Origin: Actinobacillus vicugnae
GTDB taxonomy: Bacteria > Pseudomonadota > Gammaproteobacteria > Enterobacterales > Pasteurellaceae
Assembly: GCF_901687125.1 (NCBI RefSeq)
Contig: NZ_CABFJY010000011.1
Location: forward strand, 1-64,000
Reading direction: 5' to 3'
Length of the DNA: 64,000 nucleotides
The position numbers were made by a program, and so were the translations under genes. This document shows, one piece after another, positions 34,873 to 45,489 of this stretch (the stretch's first letter is position 1; every line of letters begins with the position of its first letter). The notes under the pieces are model-generated. The model saw only the letters and a program-made list of their open reading frames with translations, did no database searches and was not told the origin of the DNA.

Positions 34873-35368
34873 GTTTCAACACACAGCCACGTGAAAGTGG
34901 CTGCTAACGATTCTTTACCTTCGTCTTTTTTAACTTTAGTTTCAACACACAGCCACGTGAAAGTGGCTGCTCAGGCAACGGTGAATAAAGGGATTACACA
35001 AGCGGTTTCAACACACAGCCACGTGAAAGTGGCTGCCACCCCATTTCTTGCGCCGAACGCTTAAGACGTTGTTTCAACACACAGCCACGTGAAAGTGGCT
35101 GCTTGCTACCCTTGAAGGCTATTGCGCAATGCGCCGGTTTCAACACACAGCCACGTGAAAGTGGCTGCCAACAGAAGCCAATGCGATATTATCAAATCCA
35201 ATGGTTTCAACACACAGCCACGTGAAAGTGGCTGCAAACAAGCGGTCAGATTTTATAAAAAAATTGCAAGTTTCAACACACAGCCACGTGAAAGTGGCTG
35301 CTACCGTATCCACATCTAAACGAAAGTTTGCAGGAAGTTTCAACACACAGCCACGTGAAAGTGGCTGC
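34873..35368 (-). CRISPR. type I-C CRISPR array, 8 repeats and 7 spacers
   Basis: Eight identical 32-bp repeats start at 34873, 34939, 35005, 35071, 35137, 35204, 35270 and 35337. On the plus strand each begins GTTTCAACACAC and ends GTGGCTGC; read on the minus strand it ends in TTGAAAC, the usual type I-C 3' handle, and contains the pairing CAGCCAC/GTGGCTG. Spacers are 34-35 bp. The array therefore reads on the minus strand, with the newest spacer beside cas2. Spacer 35103-35136 equals rnb bases 19889-19922. Spacer 35236-35269 contains an exact uptake signal, and the boundary at 34998-35006 forms another with the repeat. Confidence 0.98.
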
Positions 35369-35558: not shown

Positions 35559-35852
35559 TTATAAAATCAGCGTATCTTTAAAAATATCAATCGGCTCTTT
35601 CATTCCATGATGTTCGACTTTATTCCGCCATTTACTGCCCAAATGGTAAAAGCGCAAACTGTCGCAATCGGGGTTATAGGTTGCCAATAATTTATTTTTA
35701 AGTGTTACCCATTGATCGGGCGTGACATCACACTCAAACACCGAATACTGGGCTCGCACGCCATAATCTAGGCAATGCTTGGCGATTTGCCGTAGGCGTT
35801 TTTGCCCTGCGGGATCATCGAATGAAATATCGTAGGTAATTAACATCAACAT
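35559..35852 (-). CDS. cas2: Cas2
   Basis: A 97-residue ferredoxin-like protein, MLMLITYDISFDD..., with the conserved Asp in YDIS at the end of the first strand, and RAQYSVFECDVTPDQW. It dimerises and bridges two Cas1 dimers in the spacer-integration complex. The start is set at 35852 after GGAGGG; a TTG at 35864 would include the uptake-signal edge. An exact uptake signal (35865-35873) lies between it and cas1. Confidence 0.94.
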   Translation of the reverse strand: MLMLITYDISFDDPAGQKRLRQIAKHCLDYGVRAQYSVFECDVTPDQWVTLKNKLLATYNPDCDSLRFYHLGSKWRNKVEHHGMKEPIDIFKDTLIL

Positions 35853-35899
35853 AACGCCCTCCAAACAAGCGGTCGGATTTCAACAAAATTTTGCAAAAG

Positions 35900-36913
35900 C
35901 TAACGCATTAAAAACGGTGGATATTCGGCTAAATCACCACGCAAATGGCGGGCTAAAAGCATCGCTTGAATATAGGGTAGTAATCCAATTTCTACTTCTT
36001 CCTGTAAAAAGGGGTGAATAATTTTTTCTTGTTTTTTCGCTTGTAAGGTTTGAAACAACAATTTACGAGCCTCCGGTTTTAAACTCACCGCTCCACTGGC
36101 TTCCACCACAAAATCACTGGGCTTAATTTGCTTACGATTAATCAAAGACAGTACCATTCTATCCACCCACCAAGCACGAAATTCTTCCAGTAAATCCTGT
36201 GCCAAGCTATCGCGACCGGGGCGATCAGCATGTAGAAAACCGACTTGAGGATCAAGCCCCACGCCTTGCAGCGCACCGCTGATGTCTTTGCCCAAAATGC
36301 TATAAACAAAAGAGAGCAGTGCATTCACGCCATCGCGTGGGGGGCGGCGGTTGCGACCGTCAAAGGTAAAACCGCTTTTTTCGCTGATTAACTGCCCGAA
36401 CACGCCGAAATAACGTGCCGCCGCTTCGCCTTCAATACCACGAATCAACGCCAAATCGTCCGCCCGTTCCAGTTGCCGTAAACTTGAATTCAAGCCGACA
36501 ATCGCTTCCTGCAACGCCGCATTTTCGCCGTAATTACGAATCTGCCGTTGCAGAACCCGTTTCGACGACTGAATTTTCGCCGCAATAATATGGCGGGCAA
36601 TCGGCACAGGGTTTTGCTCCGACACCTTATATTGCGCCCGACGTAACAACACATTACCACTCTGCCGCCCCTGCAAACGCCCCAAAAACCGCCCGTTTTC
36701 AGTAAAAAACGCCAAATTTACGTTATTTTCCCCGCAAAATCCCAACAAAAACGGCGACACCAGCACATTACCAAAACAGAAAATATGTCCGATAGAATGC
36801 ACCGGCAACTGCGCCACTTTCTTGCGTTCCTGCTCCACCACCAAAGTTTCCCGCTCTTTATGCAAATAACTGCCTTGAGTAGTGATGTAGAGCGTGTTTT
36901 GAAGTTTTCTCAT
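35900..36913 (-). CDS. cas1: Cas1, type I-C integrase
   Basis: The 337-residue integrase inserts new spacers at the leader end. It has the N-terminal beta domain (NTLYITTQGSYL, IFCFGNVLVSPFLL) and the helical catalytic domain with the metal triad visible: Glu in GIEGEAAARYFG (161/163), His228 in FLHADRPGRDS and Asp240 in AQDLLEEF. AAGGAG lies ten bases upstream of its ATG. Its base composition looks richer in G+C than neighbouring housekeeping genes. Upstream, instead of cas4, comes a gene of unknown function, so the usual cas4-cas1-cas2 adaptation block is split. Confidence 0.95.
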   Translation of the reverse strand: MRKLQNTLYITTQGSYLHKERETLVVEQERKKVAQLPVHSIGHIFCFGNVLVSPFLLGFCGENNVNLAFFTENGRFLGRLQGRQSGNVLLRRAQYKVSEQNPVPIARHIIAAKIQSSKRVLQRQIRNYGENAALQEAIVGLNSSLRQLERADDLALIRGIEGEAAARYFGVFGQLISEKSGFTFDGRNRRPPRDGVNALLSFVYSILGKDISGALQGVGLDPQVGFLHADRPGRDSLAQDLLEEFRAWWVDRMVLSLINRKQIKPSDFVVEASGAVSLKPEARKLLFQTLQAKKQEKIIHPFLQEEVEIGLLPYIQAMLLARHLRGDLAEYPPFLMR

Positions 36914-36948
36914 AGTGTAAAAACTCCTTGAATTTTGACCGTGCTTTT

Positions 36949-36960
36949 ATGCCGTCTGAA
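36949..36960 (+). other. Neisseria-type DNA uptake sequence, copy 1
   Basis: Perfect 12-mer ATGCCGTCTGAA, the AT-DUS of Neisseria meningitidis/gonorrhoeae and relatives, in the gap between cas1 and the unknown gene. Beside it lies AAAAGCACGGTCAAAATT (minus strand), two bases away from a Haemophilus-type uptake signal. Confidence 0.9.
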
Positions 36961-36989
36961 AGCATATTTAATACAAAGAAATGAATGTT

Positions 36990-38744
36990 TTATTCTTGTT
37001 GTCCAAAAAGAGCTTTTCCTATATACCAAATAGCTTGCCCATAATTTGATATAAGCTGTTTCCCTTGTTGAAGAAAAGATTGGTTTTCATCAACCCTTGC
37101 CAGTTTTAATGCACTCTCAATTTTAGAACTTGTTGGATGCGCATCTCCCAATCTCATATCGTAAACACCAACAATCACGCTAAAAATCCTATGTGCATTA
37201 TCTTCTCCTATTTTTTGAGCAACAATGTCTTCTAATAATTTATTGGAACCGAGTGTTTTTTTATCTTTATGAGTAGATAGCCCACGAAGAGCTTTAACGT
37301 TAAGTCTATCGGTAAAAGTGCGAACCAAATCTTTTGCTAATCTTAGCAGTGATGCTTTGTCCGTACTTGCAAAACGGGAGATTTGTTGAAAAAAGTCCTG
37401 TTCAGTGATGTCATGCGAAAACAAAGCAATATTCAACTCTTGTTTAAAACTCATTTCCAACAGTTTCATTACTTCAAATAATAATTTCTCAACAGCATGA
37501 GTAGAAGCGGGTTGGACTTTAACCTGAGAAGCTAATAATTCTGCGGAAACTTTACCCTCAGGCACAGTATTATAGGCAGCCCAAATATGTTGCTCCCATG
37601 ATGGAAGTTTAGCAATATCATAGGCATATACCGTTATTAAATCAGAATTATTTATCCCGAAATGGGTATGATAGCCTGATGCGGAATGAATACTACCTGT
37701 TTCTGCGCTATACCATTCTAATGAAAAGCCGCGATGTTTCAGTAGTTCATTTACGATACCTGAACGAAACCACAGCCATCTTCCAACATCTTCATTATCC
37801 AATTCAGATGAAGCCATTCTTTGTCCATCGGTTTCTACAATAAATGTTGGAAGATGCTTATCTTCATCTTCCCGAACACGGATACTTAATCCTTGATGTT
37901 CAATCCATTCATTTCGCCAGAACTCTCCTTCCACCCTTATACCTTCATATCCACCACGATAACCTTGCGAGCTTTCTGATTCTGTATTTCCATCATGTTC
38001 AACCCCCAGCACAGGTGCATCATCTTCTTCATCAATATCAGTTCGCCATACTCGAAATGAAGCCCAACTTCCGCCATAGACATCATTTAAACTACGGATA
38101 AGCAACTCAAACCTACCATTATCCCGTTCTTCTTGGAAATTAGTTAAATCTGAATATTCACCGCTTTCTAATGCTTCAATGTTTTCTACTCTTTGACGAT
38201 AATAGGAAAGACGGAGAGAAAGATTTCTTGCTGCCAAATAATCCATTAAAAATTCTCTTTTAATTTCAATTTGGACATGATTGCCTTTATCATCAAAAGA
38301 TTCGCGGATAACTTCAACGAAATCCTCTTCAGGTCTGACCCAACTGTTATTTTCTTTTACTAATCGGAGCGCAAGAATCAAATCTGGACTTATTATCCAT
38401 TTTCGTCCGCCAATTACAGGTTGGGGATAATCAAAAATAAGATGAATACCAATGGGCTTATTTTCATTCCATTCATATTGTTCAACTGATTTATAATATC
38501 CATTATTGTAAGCATAGGGTTTGGCATCCAAACTGATTCCTATGTCAGACCACCCTAAGGTTTCAGCAAACTCTTTATGTTCAGGCGGGAAAGCAATTGC
38601 ATTACATCCAAAAAATTCAGACTTATAACCAATTTCTTGAGAGTCTCCCTTTTCATTTTCACAAATAGCCCTCAAAGGTATCCAAGTAGCAGTTGAAAAT
38701 GTGCGACGTGTTTCTCTTATTTGTAAAATCCAATCTTTAGTCAT
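36990..38744 (-). CDS. unknown protein embedded between cas4 and cas1
   Basis: I do not recognise this 584-residue protein. It is acidic in the N-terminal two thirds, with many Trp/Tyr-rich beta-like stretches (NGYYKSVEQYEWNENK, YGGSWASFRVWRTD, GRWLWFRSGIVNELLKHRGF) and no signal peptide, membrane helix or Walker motif. The last 180 residues are helical (LLFEVMKLLEMSFKQEL..., DLVRTFTDRLNVKALRGLSTHKDKKTL) and include VYDMRLGDAHP, an RX4H motif (Arg531, His536) like that of HEPN RNases. The start is set at 38744 after GAGAGA; an ATG at 38759 is possible. It is colinear with the cas operon and flanked on both sides by Neisseria uptake sequences. Confidence 0.75.
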   Translation of the reverse strand: MTKDWILQIRETRRTFSTATWIPLRAICENEKGDSQEIGYKSEFFGCNAIAFPPEHKEFAETLGWSDIGISLDAKPYAYNNGYYKSVEQYEWNENKPIGIHLIFDYPQPVIGGRKWIISPDLILALRLVKENNSWVRPEEDFVEVIRESFDDKGNHVQIEIKREFLMDYLAARNLSLRLSYYRQRVENIEALESGEYSDLTNFQEERDNGRFELLIRSLNDVYGGSWASFRVWRTDIDEEDDAPVLGVEHDGNTESESSQGYRGGYEGIRVEGEFWRNEWIEHQGLSIRVREDEDKHLPTFIVETDGQRMASSELDNEDVGRWLWFRSGIVNELLKHRGFSLEWYSAETGSIHSASGYHTHFGINNSDLITVYAYDIAKLPSWEQHIWAAYNTVPEGKVSAELLASQVKVQPASTHAVEKLLFEVMKLLEMSFKQELNIALFSHDITEQDFFQQISRFASTDKASLLRLAKDLVRTFTDRLNVKALRGLSTHKDKKTLGSNKLLEDIVAQKIGEDNAHRIFSVIVGVYDMRLGDAHPTSSKIESALKLARVDENQSFLQQGKQLISNYGQAIWYIGKALFGQQE

Positions 38745-38806
38745 ATTTAAATCTCTCATAATTTAATTTTATCTATCATATTTTAAAACCAATTTATCCC
38801 TCAAAT

Positions 38807-38831
38807 AACTTGTAAGCAGAACTTACAAGTT
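38807..38831. other. perfect hairpin upstream of the embedded gene
   Basis: AACTTGTAAG pairs perfectly with CTTACAAGTT around CAGAA. It lies between the cas4 stop and the embedded gene, without a T-run, so it is more likely an RNA-processing or partial terminator element than a full terminator. Function unknown. Confidence 0.5.
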
Positions 38832-38868
38832 GCGCTGCGCTTAATGCGAGCTGTTATTCAAAATTTTA

Positions 38869-38880
38869 ATGCCGTCTGAA
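38869..38880 (+). other. Neisseria-type DNA uptake sequence, copy 2
   Basis: A second perfect ATGCCGTCTGAA, same orientation as copy 1, two bases before the cas4 stop codon on the other side of the embedded gene. The two copies are 1,920 bp apart. Confidence 0.9.
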
Positions 38881-38882
38881 TC

Positions 38883-39551
38883 CTACTCCCCAAACAACCC
38901 CTTCACATACCTCACCGACTTATCCCTTTCCATCAATTTCGGCTGGCAAATCTCCACCAGCGAACAAGCCTTGCAACGTTTGCCGTATTCGGGCGGGGGC
39001 GTTTGTCCGCTGTTTAACAGTGAGCGGACGGCATTGATAACCGCTAAGGTTTTTTCGCGTAGCTCGGCGGAGAAGACAACAGGCAAGCGGTGGCGGGTTT
39101 GCATATACCAAAGTGCGCCTTCATTGATGGTTTGCCCCGTCATTTCTTCCAAGCATAAGGCTTGGGCGCAAAGTTGAATTTCATCAATGGGTTCACGTTT
39201 CGGTTTGCCACGTTTGTATTCGACAGGTTTGAGAGAATTGGTTTTGAGATCCTGTTCGACCAGATCCAAAATCCCCGTTAGCCCTAATTTTTCCGCAAAG
39301 ACGTGGACGGTGCGTTCAAAGCGAATGCCTTTGCGTTTTTCTGGCTCGCCCGAGTCCACACGTTCGTGTAAGACTTTGCCTTGGGCGGTGAGATAATTTT
39401 CAGCCCACGCCTGTTCGTTATGGATTAACGCACATTGACGTGGGCAGAAAGCATAATGTTGCAAAGCAGAGAGAGAAATCAACCGCTTGTCGCTTGTACT
39501 TGGGGCTGCAAGCGGTCGGATTTCGGCGGAATTTTGCAAATCCATACTCAT
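38883..39551 (-). CDS. cas4: Cas4 nuclease
   Basis: The 222-residue Fe-S nuclease trims prespacers and selects the PAM end during adaptation. It shows ALQHYAFCPRQCALIH (Cys36, Cys40), the nuclease residues in GILDLVEQD and PVEYKRGKP, and the C-terminal cluster Cys193-x2-Cys196-x5-Cys202. Family members usually begin near LISLSALQHY; here about 22 extra residues (MSMDLQNSAEIRPLAAPSTS) are encoded by sequence carrying uptake-signal motifs (39482-39545). It starts 7 bp after the cas7 stop with no clear ribosome site, so coupling is likely. G+C appears raised in the middle of the gene. Confidence 0.92.
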   Translation of the reverse strand: MSMDLQNSAEIRPLAAPSTSDKRLISLSALQHYAFCPRQCALIHNEQAWAENYLTAQGKVLHERVDSGEPEKRKGIRFERTVHVFAEKLGLTGILDLVEQDLKTNSLKPVEYKRGKPKREPIDEIQLCAQALCLEEMTGQTINEGALWYMQTRHRLPVVFSAELREKTLAVINAVRSLLNSGQTPPPEYGKRCKACSLVEICQPKLMERDKSVRYVKGLFGE

Positions 39552-39558
39552 TGGAGAA

Positions 39559-40449
39559 CTAGCCTAATTTACGGTGAAGTATAGTTTTACCTAAATCCTG
39601 TTCATTAACACTAACGGTGTAGTCATCAAAACTGCGGCTAACATCCACGCTTTCTTTTTTGATAACCTGAATACGCTTGAATAGGCTGTCGGCAGGGGCG
39701 TCGCCCAAGCTGTTGCTATGTTCAAATACATATAAACCACGAGCGTTCATTTGCCCACGAGCCGCCGAATGATCGTGGTCGAACATATTGATTAAGGCTT
39801 GCCAAAACAATTCTAAATCGTCATCTGAAAAGCCTGTTTGCTTAGCAAAGTGAGCGGAAACAAAACCGTGACAACGATATAAGCCGTAAGGCACGGTGAA
39901 TTTACGTCCCATACGTCCACGTTCAGACGTTTCTTTATTTTCTTCAGAGCCTTTTTTGTCATTTTCAACTTCTTTGGCTGCTGCTGAACGTGTAATTGAA
40001 TGCTCCAAAGTTACTATTGGCTCTACAGAACGAGAAAAGGTAAGTTGGACAGGACCTCTTACTTGCCCTGCGTTTTCACCTGTTGTCAATACTGCACCAA
40101 ATGTACGAATATCATAATAACGATTACACATATATTGACGAGCAGATTCCGTTTTTTCTTTACCTTTCGGTTTTTCTTTAACACTTTCTTGTTGGTGTGC
40201 GTCTGCAATCAAATCATTTAATATGGCTTTCTCACGTACAAAAATATCATTGTGCTTTTTATCATCTTCGCTATCTTTGACAAGTTGCACAAAATTACGC
40301 ACTTTACGTTTTAAGCAAACATCAGTAACCAATCCCATACCTGTTTCAGGATCAATGCGTGGCAAGTTGCCTGCGTCAGGATCGCCGTTTGGATTACCAT
40401 CTTGTACATCAAATAAAAATACGAAATCGTAGCGTTTTTCAATAGTCAT
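39559..40449 (-). CDS. cas7: Cas7 (Csd2), Cascade backbone
   Basis: The 296-residue type I-C Cas7 coats the crRNA spacer in several copies. The start RYDFVFLFDVQDGNPNGDPDAGNLPR is characteristic of Csd2, followed by VTDVCLKRKVRNFVQ, FGAVLTTGENAGQVRGPVQLTFSRS and a C-terminal GLYVFEHSNSLG. It lies 2 bp after cas8c and 7 bp before cas4. Confidence 0.95.
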   Translation of the reverse strand: MTIEKRYDFVFLFDVQDGNPNGDPDAGNLPRIDPETGMGLVTDVCLKRKVRNFVQLVKDSEDDKKHNDIFVREKAILNDLIADAHQQESVKEKPKGKEKTESARQYMCNRYYDIRTFGAVLTTGENAGQVRGPVQLTFSRSVEPIVTLEHSITRSAAAKEVENDKKGSEENKETSERGRMGRKFTVPYGLYRCHGFVSAHFAKQTGFSDDDLELFWQALINMFDHDHSAARGQMNARGLYVFEHSNSLGDAPADSLFKRIQVIKKESVDVSRSFDDYTVSVNEQDLGKTILHRKLG

Positions 40450-40451
40450 TT

Positions 40452-42182
40452 TTATTGCTCCTGTGATTCAGTGGATTGGTAAAAGTCTTGTTTTTGTTGG
40501 TAATAACCGATAGCAAATAAGCCTTGTTGGTTGATATTCAGATGATTTGGGAAAGCGTGAATTTTATTCACAATTTCTTGCTGTGATTTTTCTAAATTGA
40601 TTCTTCTGCCCGTATGCAATTTAGCCAAGTGATGTTTAGACAGGCGAAGTAATGTGCCAAATACGGTAATCGGTGTGCTACTCGCTGCTCCAAAATAACG
40701 ATCCCCAATGGTTGCATTTAAGCCTGGATTAGCTTCATCTTGGATTTTTTCTAAGACGGCAAACAATCTGCCTAAGAGATAGCCAATATCTTCTCGGGTT
40801 TTATCTAAACTCATCGATAACTCCTTAATGTTTGTTAAGCGGTTGGCTCGGATTGCTCGGTTAAGGTATGCCTTAATCAAACAAGCTCGTCCATAGGTAA
40901 TTTTTTGTTCTGCTTTGTTGCGGCGTAATGCGGTTTGAAACAGTGCAATAGGTAGCGGTAAATGATTTAATGCGGATAATGTCGTTTGGGCAATTAAATC
41001 TGGTGGCAGATTTTCCAGTTTGCCATCTAAAACCAAATTACCCAGCAAGCGTGATAACGGCATAAATTCTGGATAAGGCGATTTTTCGCTACGCACCATT
41101 TTTAAATCTTCATACCATTGGGCAAGATTTTCGGATAATTCTGCAACCGTAGTTTCGTGCCAAAAACGCACAACTATCCGTGCTGAATTGGGCGATAAAC
41201 CTAAAAGATAAAATTTATCTGTCGCATTAGGTTGGATGTATTTACCGTTGTATAGACTTTTATAAAGTGCTTTGACTTCGCCAATGTGTGCATCTGGATT
41301 ATCTTTGTTACCGTTTAACATAATAGGTAGACGGGTTTCCAATGGAGCAGGTTTTTCACTCCAACACACCGCTGTCACATCGCCTATACGAAAACGGTTT
41401 TCACTGGCAAGCAATGTGTTTAACGCGGTAGAATATTCAAACATTGCTTGTTCACCGACAGGGAAAATGAACCCTTGTGCCTTACCATAGGATTCAAATG
41501 CGGAAAGGTTTACGGACGTAAACGGAGCTGGTTTGGCATTCACCCCTTTTACCGCATTATGCAGTCGAGCAATCGGTGCATTTTTCCCTGTTACCAAACA
41601 AATGCCTTTTGGCGTATCATCTGAACTCAATTCTTTGGTTTGAGCTAAGTAATTTTGCAAAGCAGGAGATTGACAGACCAAACTGGCTACTTCATCTACC
41701 AAACGAAAACTCAAATTACAGCCTTTGATTTTGCTACATTCTGCCCAGTTTTCATGTTGCATCACTTTGGCTTTTTCATCGGGAGAACCTAAGAAGGCAG
41801 CAACAGCTGCAATACCTTCATCTTCGGGAAGAGTTTGTTGAAGTGCTTTTACTTTTTCCGTAAAACTTTGGTGTTGTTTATCCGCTTGTTCCTGCTCTTT
41901 TTCACCAGCATAAGCTAGTACATAACCATAATGATCCCAAAGTATATTACTGATCTCATAGGATTTTTTACCTGACCGAGCCAAACCTTTCGGAACTAAA
42001 AAAGTGCGGGCAATTTTTTTCTTGTTTTGTAATTCTCGTGTATCTTCAAAAGCGATAAATTTCCCTTGTTTATCAATCACGATGATAAAAGGAATTTCTT
42101 TATGTTCAAAACCTTCTGGGGCAATATCACCACCCAAAGCGGCTTTGCGTTGGTAGTATTGGGTAAGGGCGTGCAAGATCAT
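40452..42182 (-). CDS. cas8c: Cas8c (Csd1), large Cascade subunit
   Basis: The 576-residue large subunit of type I-C Cascade recognises the PAM and recruits Cas3. It begins MILHALTQYYQRKAALGGDIAPEGF, typical of Csd1, and contains NLSAFESYGKAQGFIFPVGEQAMFEYSTALN, and LDKTREDIGYLLGRLFAVLEKIQDEANPG. In other I-C systems an internal start gives a separate small subunit (Cas11) from its 3' end; here an ATG at residue Met of SMSLDKTREDIGY is a candidate. It overlaps cas5c by four bases. Confidence 0.94.
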   Translation of the reverse strand: MILHALTQYYQRKAALGGDIAPEGFEHKEIPFIIVIDKQGKFIAFEDTRELQNKKKIARTFLVPKGLARSGKKSYEISNILWDHYGYVLAYAGEKEQEQADKQHQSFTEKVKALQQTLPEDEGIAAVAAFLGSPDEKAKVMQHENWAECSKIKGCNLSFRLVDEVASLVCQSPALQNYLAQTKELSSDDTPKGICLVTGKNAPIARLHNAVKGVNAKPAPFTSVNLSAFESYGKAQGFIFPVGEQAMFEYSTALNTLLASENRFRIGDVTAVCWSEKPAPLETRLPIMLNGNKDNPDAHIGEVKALYKSLYNGKYIQPNATDKFYLLGLSPNSARIVVRFWHETTVAELSENLAQWYEDLKMVRSEKSPYPEFMPLSRLLGNLVLDGKLENLPPDLIAQTTLSALNHLPLPIALFQTALRRNKAEQKITYGRACLIKAYLNRAIRANRLTNIKELSMSLDKTREDIGYLLGRLFAVLEKIQDEANPGLNATIGDRYFGAASSTPITVFGTLLRLSKHHLAKLHTGRRINLEKSQQEIVNKIHAFPNHLNINQQGLFAIGYYQQKQDFYQSTESQEQ

Positions 42183-42823
42183 CTTTTCACCTCATCACTA
42201 TTGGCGGGTGGCACAATGATCACACCGTTTTCAGCTTTACAATGATAAAACATCGGCTCGGCATTATCGGAATCTCGTGGGGCGGATTTGCTGTAATCCA
42301 TATCGTAGAGCATAAAGCCAAAATCTTGGGTGATGTCTTCTCGTGGCAAGCCATCTTCTGCCCTTTCCAATAATCTAAAATTGCACGGAAATTCACGGCA
42401 ACCTAAATAGGGTTGATGAAAATACTGTCCCTTGCTCGCACGGCGTTTAAACATTTCCACAAACTTGATGCGATTATCATCTTTGCCAGCCTGATCGGTC
42501 ATTTCAAAATCAGCGTGAATACGGTAAGCCACATCGCGCAACAACATAGACGCTCTCTGTTGTCGGTTATCTTCAATATAAAGCGATTGACTACGCTCAC
42601 TCATTTTGCTACCCAGCTCATTACGGCGGATATTTACCCATTGAATGGGTTTTAAAATCTCAATTTTAGACACTGACCAGCGAATAGCCGGCTTCCACAG
42701 AATTGCCGTCAAAATGTTTCGTGCCACAGACGGCGTAATCACAGGATAACTCACCCGTTCCACTTTCAATTCAGGGCGAGTAAAACAAGCTAAATCACCG
42801 CTAATTTCCAAAATAAAACTCAT
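42179..42823 (-). CDS. cas5c: Cas5c, crRNA-processing endonuclease
   Basis: The 214-residue Cas5 of type I-C systems cuts the repeat (replacing Cas6) and caps the 5' handle of crRNA. It matches the Cas5d/Cas5c pattern: FTRPELKVERVSYPVITPSVARNILTAILWKPAIRW, RRNELGSKM, QRASMLLRDVAYRIHADFEM and YHQPYLGCREFPCNFRL. It ends in a four-base overlap with cas8c and is 38 bp after cas3. Confidence 0.95.
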   Translation of the reverse strand: MSFILEISGDLACFTRPELKVERVSYPVITPSVARNILTAILWKPAIRWSVSKIEILKPIQWVNIRRNELGSKMSERSQSLYIEDNRQQRASMLLRDVAYRIHADFEMTDQAGKDDNRIKFVEMFKRRASKGQYFHQPYLGCREFPCNFRLLERAEDGLPREDITQDFGFMLYDMDYSKSAPRDSDNAEPMFYHCKAENGVIIVPPANSDEVKR

Positions 42824-42861: not shown

Positions 42862-45489
42862 CTAAAACACAAAAGATTGCATTTCATCATCAAAATTCGC
42901 ACCTAACACATTGTCATAATAACCTTTATCTAATAACAGTAAACCTGCTCGGGGATAAACGGAATTTGCAGGTAACTTTTTAAGTTCATTTTCATAAATG
43001 GTGATGGTATAGCGTTGCAACTTCCGATAAACCCATTTATGTTTTAGAGGATCACTTTCAAGATAATTAAACCAACTTTCAAAAGGTTCAGGCAAAGGCG
43101 GGGTATCGGTTTGTCCGTAAGTTTCATCAATATCGCTTGGATAACGATATTTTTCCAAATGATTTAGCCACAAATCAGGCGATATATCGGCTAAATGTGT
43201 TTCATAAAATGTGTCTAACTCAGCCGTATCTACCACTTTTGTTGTTTTCCCCTTTTCCTGCCAAGCCAGCGGAATAAATGGCACAATTAACGCAATGCCT
43301 TGATTATCAATCAAGCGAAACTTCTCCGCTACGGTACGAAATTTTATCGATAGAGGATTTTGAGCACTTGATTCCAGGGTTAAATCGTGGCAAATGTTAT
43401 GTTTATCTCGATCTCCTTTTCCGTTAAATCGTTGGAAATAATCACTAAATGCAACTGGCGATAATGGATCAGCTAATTTATCGCTCTGTATCATCTCCTC
43501 CGTAATATCCTGCCCTTGTTTCAAACTGCCATTTGGTGCGCCCTCTTCGGCTCGAAATACGATCACTTCACCCAAATTCGGCAATTTACCCTCACGATTA
43601 CAACGCCCCGCGGCTTGGGCAATGCTATCTAAACCTGCCATTGCTCGGTAAACCACAGGGAAATCTAAATCAACACCTGCTTCAATCAATTGTGTACTCA
43701 CCACCCAAAGCGGTTGAGCGAGTTCTCCATTGCGATAAGCGTGTAAATATCGGCGAATTAACCCAATAACTTCGGCACGGTGAACGGCACACATATTGGC
43801 AGAAAGGTGCAATTTAATGCCATTGACTGGCAAAGCAGCAAAAAGTTTGCGTGCGTGTTTGCGAGTATTCACAATCGCCAACACGCAATCTCGTTGAGCA
43901 ATTTCATCAGCAATTTCTTGCCAGCTTTGTTTCAGCTGATCTTTCGCTGGAAGCCTGATTTGCACACGGCGAAGTTTTTCCGCAAGGGCGATTTTATCTT
44001 TGATGATTTCATATACATCGGGCAAACCTTCCAATAATGTCCGCCCAAAAGTATCAATATCTTTGCCTAATTCAGGTTGCGTTGCGGTACATAACACAAA
44101 AGTAACGCCATAATCCCGAGCCAATACTCGCATAATATCGGTAATCGGCTTTTGAAACTCACGGGGAATTTGTTGGGCTTCATCTAAAATAATGACGCTA
44201 TCAACAATGTTATGCAGTTTTCGACAACGGCTAGTTTTAGCTGCAAATAGGCTTTCAAAAAGTTGCACGTTCGTGGTAACAATCAACGGAGCATCCCAAT
44301 TTTCCGTTGCCAAACGAGTTCTTGCAGTTTCTTTATCTTCGCTTACTTCTAAATTGCTATGATGTTCTAACACCACATCTGCACCTAGCACATTGCGAAA
44401 AACCACTGCATTTTGCTCAATAATGCTGGTAAATGGAATGGCATAAATAATGCGTTTTTTATTGAATTTCAATGCGTGTTTTAACGCAAAGCCTAAACTC
44501 GCCAAGGTTTTTCCGCCCCCTGTCGGCACTGTCAGGCTGAACAATGATTTATCTAATTGAGCTGCGGTAAAGCATTGTTGCAAAATAGCATTACGTTCCT
44601 GATTAAGCGGTGAGTTATCCGCTTTTTTTGCCAATGTCGCCATATAATGCTCATAGCGACTGTATAGCTCATTCAGATCTGCAAATTTAGGGCGAAATCC
44701 TACCGCTTGTGCTTCATCAGCACTGGCATACCCATTCATAAAGGCTTCGGTATCTAAAAAGTCCGCATCGACCAAACAAGAAAAGAGAAAACGAATCCAA
44801 ATATGCAGTTCTTGTGCACAATTTGCTTGTAAAAAAGCAGGAAAATCACTTATCAAGTCGTCATTAGAAAGTGCAAAAAAATCCTCAGACAAACCACTTG
44901 ATAGCCAACCTTGCAACGCCTTCTCTAATTCATCATTCGCATTCTGCAAACGTGCTTTTAAACTGCCTTTATTGAGCCAATCAGCTAGCCCTGCGTGATG
45001 TCCTGCGATGAGATAGGCAAGTATATGACCAATAAAAGGATCAAGTTTTGCAACCGCATATTTTGCCCCTGCGGTGGAATGTGGAATTTTCTGCGAAGAA
45101 GATTGTTCTACCTCTTCCAAATGGGCATTTTCTTTATCACTCCCTGATTTTTCAGCAAGATAACGTTGCCATTCTAACCGTGCTTTACCTAAATCATGTA
45201 ATAGCCCCAAAACCTTGGCATACTTTCCACCACGTCGAGCTGCAAATTTCTGAGCTAATTGGCTAACCTGTAACAAGTGAGTAGGTAAAGTTTGATATAT
45301 CCATTCGCTATTCTTATTTTTATATAAGTGGGCAACTAAAACAGATTTTGTTTCTGTATCTTGAGCCATCCCAAAATCAAGCTTGTCAGCAAATTGCTTG
45401 GCTAATTCTGCCGTTTCAGTTAAATGGGGTTCGAGTGTTTGAATTTTACCATCAGATTTGCAGATATGAGCAATTCGAGTTGAGTTCAT
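42862..45489 (-). CDS. cas3: Cas3 helicase-nuclease with duplicated N-terminal segment
   Basis: The 875-residue protein unwinds and degrades DNA marked by Cascade. HD-nuclease residues: His71, HDLGK (98-102), GHHAG (163-167) and Asp in LVDADF; helicase motifs: VPTGGGKT (321-328), DEAQ (436-439), CTATQP and AAGRCNREG. The first 48 residues repeat the segment that normally starts Cas3: IAHICKSDGKIQTLEPHLTE (6-25) and VAHLYKNKNSEW...TLPTHLLQV (52-75). TAGGAG before the ATG at 45489 shows the extra copy is translated. Uptake signal 44702-44710 lies in the gene. Confidence 0.95.
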   Translation of the reverse strand: MNSTRIAHICKSDGKIQTLEPHLTETAELAKQFADKLDFGMAQDTETKSVLVAHLYKNKNSEWIYQTLPTHLLQVSQLAQKFAARRGGKYAKVLGLLHDLGKARLEWQRYLAEKSGSDKENAHLEEVEQSSSQKIPHSTAGAKYAVAKLDPFIGHILAYLIAGHHAGLADWLNKGSLKARLQNANDELEKALQGWLSSGLSEDFFALSNDDLISDFPAFLQANCAQELHIWIRFLFSCLVDADFLDTEAFMNGYASADEAQAVGFRPKFADLNELYSRYEHYMATLAKKADNSPLNQERNAILQQCFTAAQLDKSLFSLTVPTGGGKTLASLGFALKHALKFNKKRIIYAIPFTSIIEQNAVVFRNVLGADVVLEHHSNLEVSEDKETARTRLATENWDAPLIVTTNVQLFESLFAAKTSRCRKLHNIVDSVIILDEAQQIPREFQKPITDIMRVLARDYGVTFVLCTATQPELGKDIDTFGRTLLEGLPDVYEIIKDKIALAEKLRRVQIRLPAKDQLKQSWQEIADEIAQRDCVLAIVNTRKHARKLFAALPVNGIKLHLSANMCAVHRAEVIGLIRRYLHAYRNGELAQPLWVVSTQLIEAGVDLDFPVVYRAMAGLDSIAQAAGRCNREGKLPNLGEVIVFRAEEGAPNGSLKQGQDITEEMIQSDKLADPLSPVAFSDYFQRFNGKGDRDKHNICHDLTLESSAQNPLSIKFRTVAEKFRLIDNQGIALIVPFIPLAWQEKGKTTKVVDTAELDTFYETHLADISPDLWLNHLEKYRYPSDIDETYGQTDTPPLPEPFESWFNYLESDPLKHKWVYRKLQRYTITIYENELKKLPANSVYPRAGLLLLDKGYYDNVLGANFDDEMQSFVF

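Follow-up and report, generated by a model that had tools for sequence, protein, structure and literature searches.

One immune system can harbor the gene of another within its operon, as reported for PrrC and ApeA in restriction operons in the part of PMC3710099 available. Integrons have been presented as stores of anti-phage genes (Darracq 2025, Getz 2025 and Kieffer 2025, as cited in the accessible text of PMC12444791). For CRISPR-Cas operons, the available sections of a 2026 Haemophilus survey give an identical order, cas3-cas5-cas8c-cas7-cas4-cas1-cas2, for type I-C and make no mention there of inserts (PMC13016550), and the accessible part of PMC6360697 mentions one Vibrio operon, of type I-F, in which cas3 and cas8f are separated by a hypothetical gene. 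Here we describe a gene of 584 codons (36990..38744, minus strand) that lies between cas4 and cas1 of a type I-C operon of Actinobacillus vicugnae, in the first 64,000 nucleotides of contig NZ_CABFJY010000011.1 (assembly GCF_901687125.1), a stretch referred to below as the window. The operon contains the same cas genes in the same order as the type I-C systems of Haemophilus, Mannheimia and Neisseria, and reads cas3-cas5c-cas8c-cas7c-cas4-[gene]-cas1-cas2 on the minus strand, together with a CRISPR array. With a probability of about 0.7, we consider this gene to be one of the cargo genes that fill the type I-C cas4/cas1 junction, and likely a stand-alone anti-phage gene, with a predicted sensor and HEPN-like RNA cutting.

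The locus resembles nested PrrC and ApeA in that an immune gene lies inside another immune operon, and the gene family likewise has a member nested in a type I restriction operon, with hsdR and hsdM on either side, on a Fusobacteria plasmid (L152:5968-7749). What sets the present locus apart is a CRISPR-Cas host operon and the presence of two recurring slots, the contents of which turn over across two families. With integrons it shares a fixed frame carrying exchangeable immune cargo, and some members of the gene family are indeed integron cassettes; unlike in integrons, no attC was found at the window's cas slot, and exchange would proceed via homology in cas4 and cas1. No report on defence cargo at the type I-C cas4/cas1 junction was found in the literature searched, which included the available parts of PMC10865793, PMC13016550, PMC4771134 and PMC6360697, subscription journals lying mostly outside its reach.

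The cas4/cas1 junction as a cargo slot

Type I-C cas1 was surveyed in 140 Pasteurellaceae-type genomes, of which 50 were over the cut-off, and in 83 Neisseriaceae-type genomes, of which 26 were over it, and 50 + 26 operons were fetched. The Pasteurellaceae-type set comprised 49 operons over the cut-off and that of G128, which fell slightly short of it, and did not include G023, G050 or a split copy in G039. Family labels were inferred from uptake words, from named homologues (Mannheimia, Aggregatibacter) and from the 1437 copies of the AT dialect of the DNA uptake sequence (AT-DUS) in G597. Slot counts include the window, the total for each junction covers only loci with both of its genes, and a cas4/cas1 slot was called filled at a gap of at least 300 bp. 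Locus L049 (record CABDVE010000001, titled Pseudomonas stutzeri NCTC11607 and probably mislabelled) has the operon spacing of G128; as a duplicate of L145, it was dropped.

That the cas4/cas1 junction is a recurrent cargo slot with variable contents is well supported. The gap reached at least 300 bp in 40/50 Pasteurellaceae-type and 22/24 Neisseriaceae-type operons in which both genes were found, and 54 of the 62 filled slots contained an open reading frame (ORF) of at least 100 amino acids. Gaps of this size were found at cas7c/cas4 in 5/72 operons, at cas8c/cas7c in 1/55 and at cas1/cas2 in 2/76; those between cas5c and cas8c (8/39 and 3/17) we take to be unmatched starts of divergent cas8 genes. 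The cas3/cas5c junction is a second slot: 31/65 operons have a gap of at least 500 bp there, and 23 of the 31 an ORF of at least 100 amino acids; in the window, this slot is empty. At least one filled slot was found in 17 of the 20 genera of the window's family that have a type I-C operon, and 12 operons had an empty cas4/cas1 junction of 7-113 bp.

The cargo is often immune-like and varies among operons, with many matches to known anti-phage families. Pfam scans covered 40 of the 118 cargo ORFs, namely 33 proteins from the cas4/cas1 slot and 7 from cas3/cas5c. Eighteen of the 33 passed the Pfam cut-off, their names including immune-type ones (NYN+LOTUS, TIR, SLATT, SMODS, OLD TOPRIM, GmrSD, RVT_1, PIN, DarT and Macro) and others (HNH, RhuM, metallo-beta-lactamase, DUF1643 and HATPase), as did 5 of the 7 (SIR2, HerA, STALD, KwaB and NA37). 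DarTG, CBASS, OLD, TIR, reverse-transcriptase, SIR2-HerA, Thoeris and Kiwa proteins are all present among the cargo, and TIR, OLD, GmrSD, DarTG, CBASS, Thoeris and Kiwa are anti-phage families, as the Pfam and PADLOC names also indicate. Clustering of the 118 ORFs yielded 70 clusters, whose representatives matched 414 PADLOC models, including GajB, HerA, SIR2, SduA, KwaB, DarG and type II restriction proteins, as opposed to 5 matched by 70 flanking genes (70 of the 163 clusters flanking type I-C operons). The remaining 15 of the 33 slot proteins passed no Pfam cut-off, and the slot therefore predicts new anti-phage genes that can be tested, the window's gene first. One result speaks against our interpretation: among ten slot proteins without a Pfam family, only three matched a PADLOC model and seven matched nothing there, which is why we lowered our confidence from 0.72 to 0.70.

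The contents turn over: among 149 operon pairs whose cas1 genes share 93% identity or more, 142 had no cargo DNA in common. Fifteen of the 70 cargo clusters are common to both families, and in five cross-family pairs (L125/L173, L133/L170, L129/L178, L122/L160 and L112/L167) the cargo is 81-88% identical in DNA at a cas1 identity of 73-82%. Other pairs show the opposite pattern, for instance L096/L156 with 95% for cas1 and 70% for the cargo.

Filling of the junction is not confined to these two families, and this bears on the idea that the two junctions are no more than a safe harbour, which tolerates any insertion and in which defence genes dominate through their mobility, with neither a functional link nor selected exchange. 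The restriction of frequent filling to these two junctions agrees with that idea, as does a cas4/cas1 gap of at least 300 bp in 6/28 operons from other families of the class (29 of 31 loci over the cut-off, the window aside, with only 1.5 kb before cas1 covered and L214 without cas4 in reach). However, filling is far commoner in the two uptake-sequence families (62/74 versus 6/28), 67 of 71 ORFs are co-oriented, and insertions at cas4/cas1 interrupt the very module for adaptation, yet the cas7c/cas4 junction is so seldom filled. We regard a mere safe harbour as rather unlikely and favor a slot whose cargo is exchanged.

Uptake sequences and the origin of the segment

The first-pass annotation of the window had pointed to an inserted gene between two Neisseria uptake sequences, in a genome with an uptake word of its own, and had concluded that the segment came through a Neisseria; this interpretation is partly supported by the present analysis. 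A word search located exact copies of the AT-DUS ATGCCGTCTGAA on the plus strand at 36949..36960, within the cas1 leader (36914..36960, minus strand), and at 38869..38880, directly behind the cas4 stop codon. These are the only two copies in the 2,484,975-base assembly (0 for the reversed control), a frequency at this segment beyond chance. A Haemophilus-type uptake word in decayed form, AAAGCACGGT, is also present in the leader, and the host's own word, ACAAGCGGT, occurs 21 times in the window against 0.47 expected. The remark that cas1 and cas4 are richer in G+C was right, since they measure 47.7 and 49.9% against 39.3% for the window; the inserted gene has 37.0%. Since both DUS copies are direct, an inverted-repeat terminator was rejected.

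Comparison with the 61 other filled slots separates the two copies. The cas1-side DUS conforms to a leader pattern that is not specific to this insert, as 12 of the 61 have a word with 1-3 mismatches in the 110 bp before cas1, L123 among those with a DUS-like word there (2 mismatches). The cas4-side copy is without match: within 60 bp behind cas4, the closest word has 4-7 mismatches in each of the 61 (a comparison made with no shuffled null). The word search included the DUS dialects muc, eik, king3 and wad. The dialects AT, AG, king and sim are described in the available part of PMC7371117. In the 61 slots, exact DUS words or Haemophilus-type uptake signal sequences (USS) number 34 within 9.15 kb on the cas1 side (25/61 slots) and 0 within an equal 9.15 kb on the cas4 side; the 66 kb of interior contain 7, and the 446 kb of cas coding sequence 487. 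The USS lie 29-34 bp and the DUS 47-121 bp before cas1. The cas frame appears to be adapted to uptake and the more A+T-rich cargo not.

A recent import of the entire cas4-gene-cas1 segment from Neisseria would account for the confinement of both AT-DUS copies of the genome to this segment and is in keeping with a cas1 DNA tree in which the families are intermixed, with 14 label changes, at least 7 of them forced by starred branches (a quick tree, for which long branches and uneven composition were flagged). Together with the shared cargo clusters, the tree supports an exchange between Neisseria-type and Pasteurellaceae-type bacteria; the foreign character of the segment is also supported. Of the two outcomes that the first-pass annotation had named as speaking against its view, one was observed, the homologues lying mainly away from cas loci and none of them in the DUS-rich genus, and the other was not, as cas1 departs from host family. 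A Neisseria origin of the inserted gene was not supported within the genomes sampled: 0/46 genomes of the DUS-rich genus contain it, and the one relative among the 83 Neisseriaceae-type genomes, at 35% identity, is outside that genus. Among the operons fetched, moreover, the nearest relative of the window's cas1 and cas4 is the Pasteurellaceae-type L123 (88 and 85% DNA identity), and DUS-like words precede cas1 in other operons as well. A recent Neisseria import is in our opinion improbable.

Cargo would be exchanged through natural transformation and recombination within the conserved flanking genes cas4 and cas1, a process that the uptake sequences near cas1 may assist. It is conceivable, and to us an evenly balanced proposition, that in competent mucosal bacteria the type I-C operons play the part of an integron without an integrase, as a conserved immune frame with two docking slots, uptake words at the cas1 edge and an inter-family pool of single innate systems that are swapped by transformation and read with the cas genes, the window's gene being a new member with an Avs3-like sensor and a HEPN RNase. 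If true, the CRISPR operon would double as an exchange point for innate immunity, immune gene flow would be linked to the specificity of uptake sequences in Haemophilus and Neisseria kin, and inspecting what lies between cas4 and cas1 would be a simple route to new defence genes.

AT-DUS clusters were also seen in two other genomes of the window's family, G119 (L182, contig 28) and G132 (L183 and L184), with 6 and 12 copies; five of the cluster of six lie within about 8 kb, and the stretches fetched (L182-L184) show no type I-C cas gene.

The inserted gene and its predicted product

Most aligned homologues favor the ATG at 38744 as the start of the inserted gene; an alternative ATG at 38759 would give 589 codons. 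The family has no Pfam name and is widespread and mobile, occurring in unrelated bacteria; of 7997 candidates scored, 1740 reached E 0.001 or better. It is present in 5/140 genomes of the window's family, window counted, one of the five being only a weak 23% match; besides the cas operon described here, one member occupies the cas3/cas5c slot of L145, and those in L146 and L147 have no type I-C cas gene in reach. In L145, the operon of G128, both slots are filled and the cas1 gene has an in-frame stop; the adaptation module of G128 may therefore be dead.

The place and orientation of the gene within the adaptation module had raised the possibility of an accessory that works with Cas4, Cas1 and Cas2 in spacer acquisition. 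The homologues, however, lie mostly outside cas loci: 57 of 58 genome-collection loci show no type I-C cas gene in the sequence examined (L003-L060, 4.9-19.8 kb each, tested with the window's own Cas proteins only), the exception being the locus shared by L049 and L145, where the gene lies between cas3 and cas5c. Unrelated genes fill the cas4/cas1 slot in other operons, and some operons have none. A role as accessory is very improbable, and no evidence was found for a controller of the operon, which the first-pass annotation had also considered; its remaining option, a defence gene in its own right that shelters in the operon, is the one that our data support.

Consistent with a defence gene, 98 of the 213 neighbor ORFs of the family were scanned and matched 211 PADLOC models, versus 5 over the 70 type I-C flanking genes, an unmatched control. 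In some genomes the gene is an integron cassette, with attC on both sides in 7/57 loci; 48 of 49 attC hits were on the strand of the gene, although 14 of the 49 were sequences used to build the attC model. A long one-strand run of attC-like sites around a homologue (L013:8324-19209) is probably a chromosomal integron array. The attC model found no site at the window's gene, and an attC remnant beside it was rejected (best E 2.4). A phage gene was likewise rejected, with no match in 50,697 phage records, and the 4.9 kb of DNA searched had no near match in E. coli.

It is plausible, with weak support from the fold search, that the front of the protein is a sensor and the rear a HEPN RNase. Residues 1-290 of the predicted model have the fold of residues 1845-2077 of Avs3 (AVAST type 3). 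The protein differs from Avs3 in its rear domain and in that no ATPase (STAND) family was matched in its 584 residues by Pfam, PADLOC or NCBIfam models, the residues being occupied by other domains. In the rear, R, D, A and H of an RLGDAH motif (Rx4H; codons at 37137..37154, minus strand) are invariant in 70 aligned sequences. The spacing of four between R535 and H540 fits HEPN Rx4-6H, and in the predicted model R535 is near the end of a long helix (518-539) and H540 in the following loop, the place described for this motif in the available part of PMC3710099.

These features argue against a helical end that is not HEPN, in which case the protein would act otherwise, for instance as a binding decoy or a regulator. 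The fold scores are weak: no match to the rear domain was obtained with Foldseek at E 0.001, and the fold comparison separated no HEPN chain from unrelated helical proteins. An ApeA profile match, too, is absent. The family shares with ApeA (PF18862+PF18739) an arrangement of about 300 mostly-strand residues with conserved aromatics, followed by a helical Rx4H domain, but ApeA was rejected by sequence, as none of 70 members matched either Pfam family at E 1 and hhalign gave a probability of 0.2% against 8 ApeA proteins; a class-wide search with PF18862 found no match anywhere, controls included, and is uninformative. A non-HEPN end appears doubtful to us. If the rear is a HEPN RNase, recognition of a phage component by the front domain could release it, and RNA cutting in the infected cell might end in abortive infection. 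A sequence search of solved structures found nothing below E 0.34, and weak matches to WWE_5 (E 0.076) and Cas1 (E 0.013-0.051), far under the cut-offs, were discounted.

Other features of the window operon

The remaining cas genes are all on the minus strand. PADLOC and NCBIfam models identified cas1 (35900..36913) and cas4 (38883..39551), and PADLOC models cas7c (39559..40449), cas8c (40452..42182), cas5c (42179..42823) and cas3 (42862..45489); cas2 (35559..35864) was assigned by matches to solved Cas2 proteins (best E 1.2e-34). The operon is a mosaic by nearest relatives, with L143 for cas2 and L125 for cas3, cas5c and cas7c, while cas8c is about equally near L118 and L171, the latter a Neisseria-type operon. 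The CRISPR array (34873..35368, strand not assigned) has 8 repeats, counted by eye. Lastly, the gap between cas4 and the inserted gene (38745..38882, minus strand) contains, within 38760-38840 and upstream of the gene, the palindrome CTTGTAAG-CTTACAAG, whose arms are separated by TTCTG.
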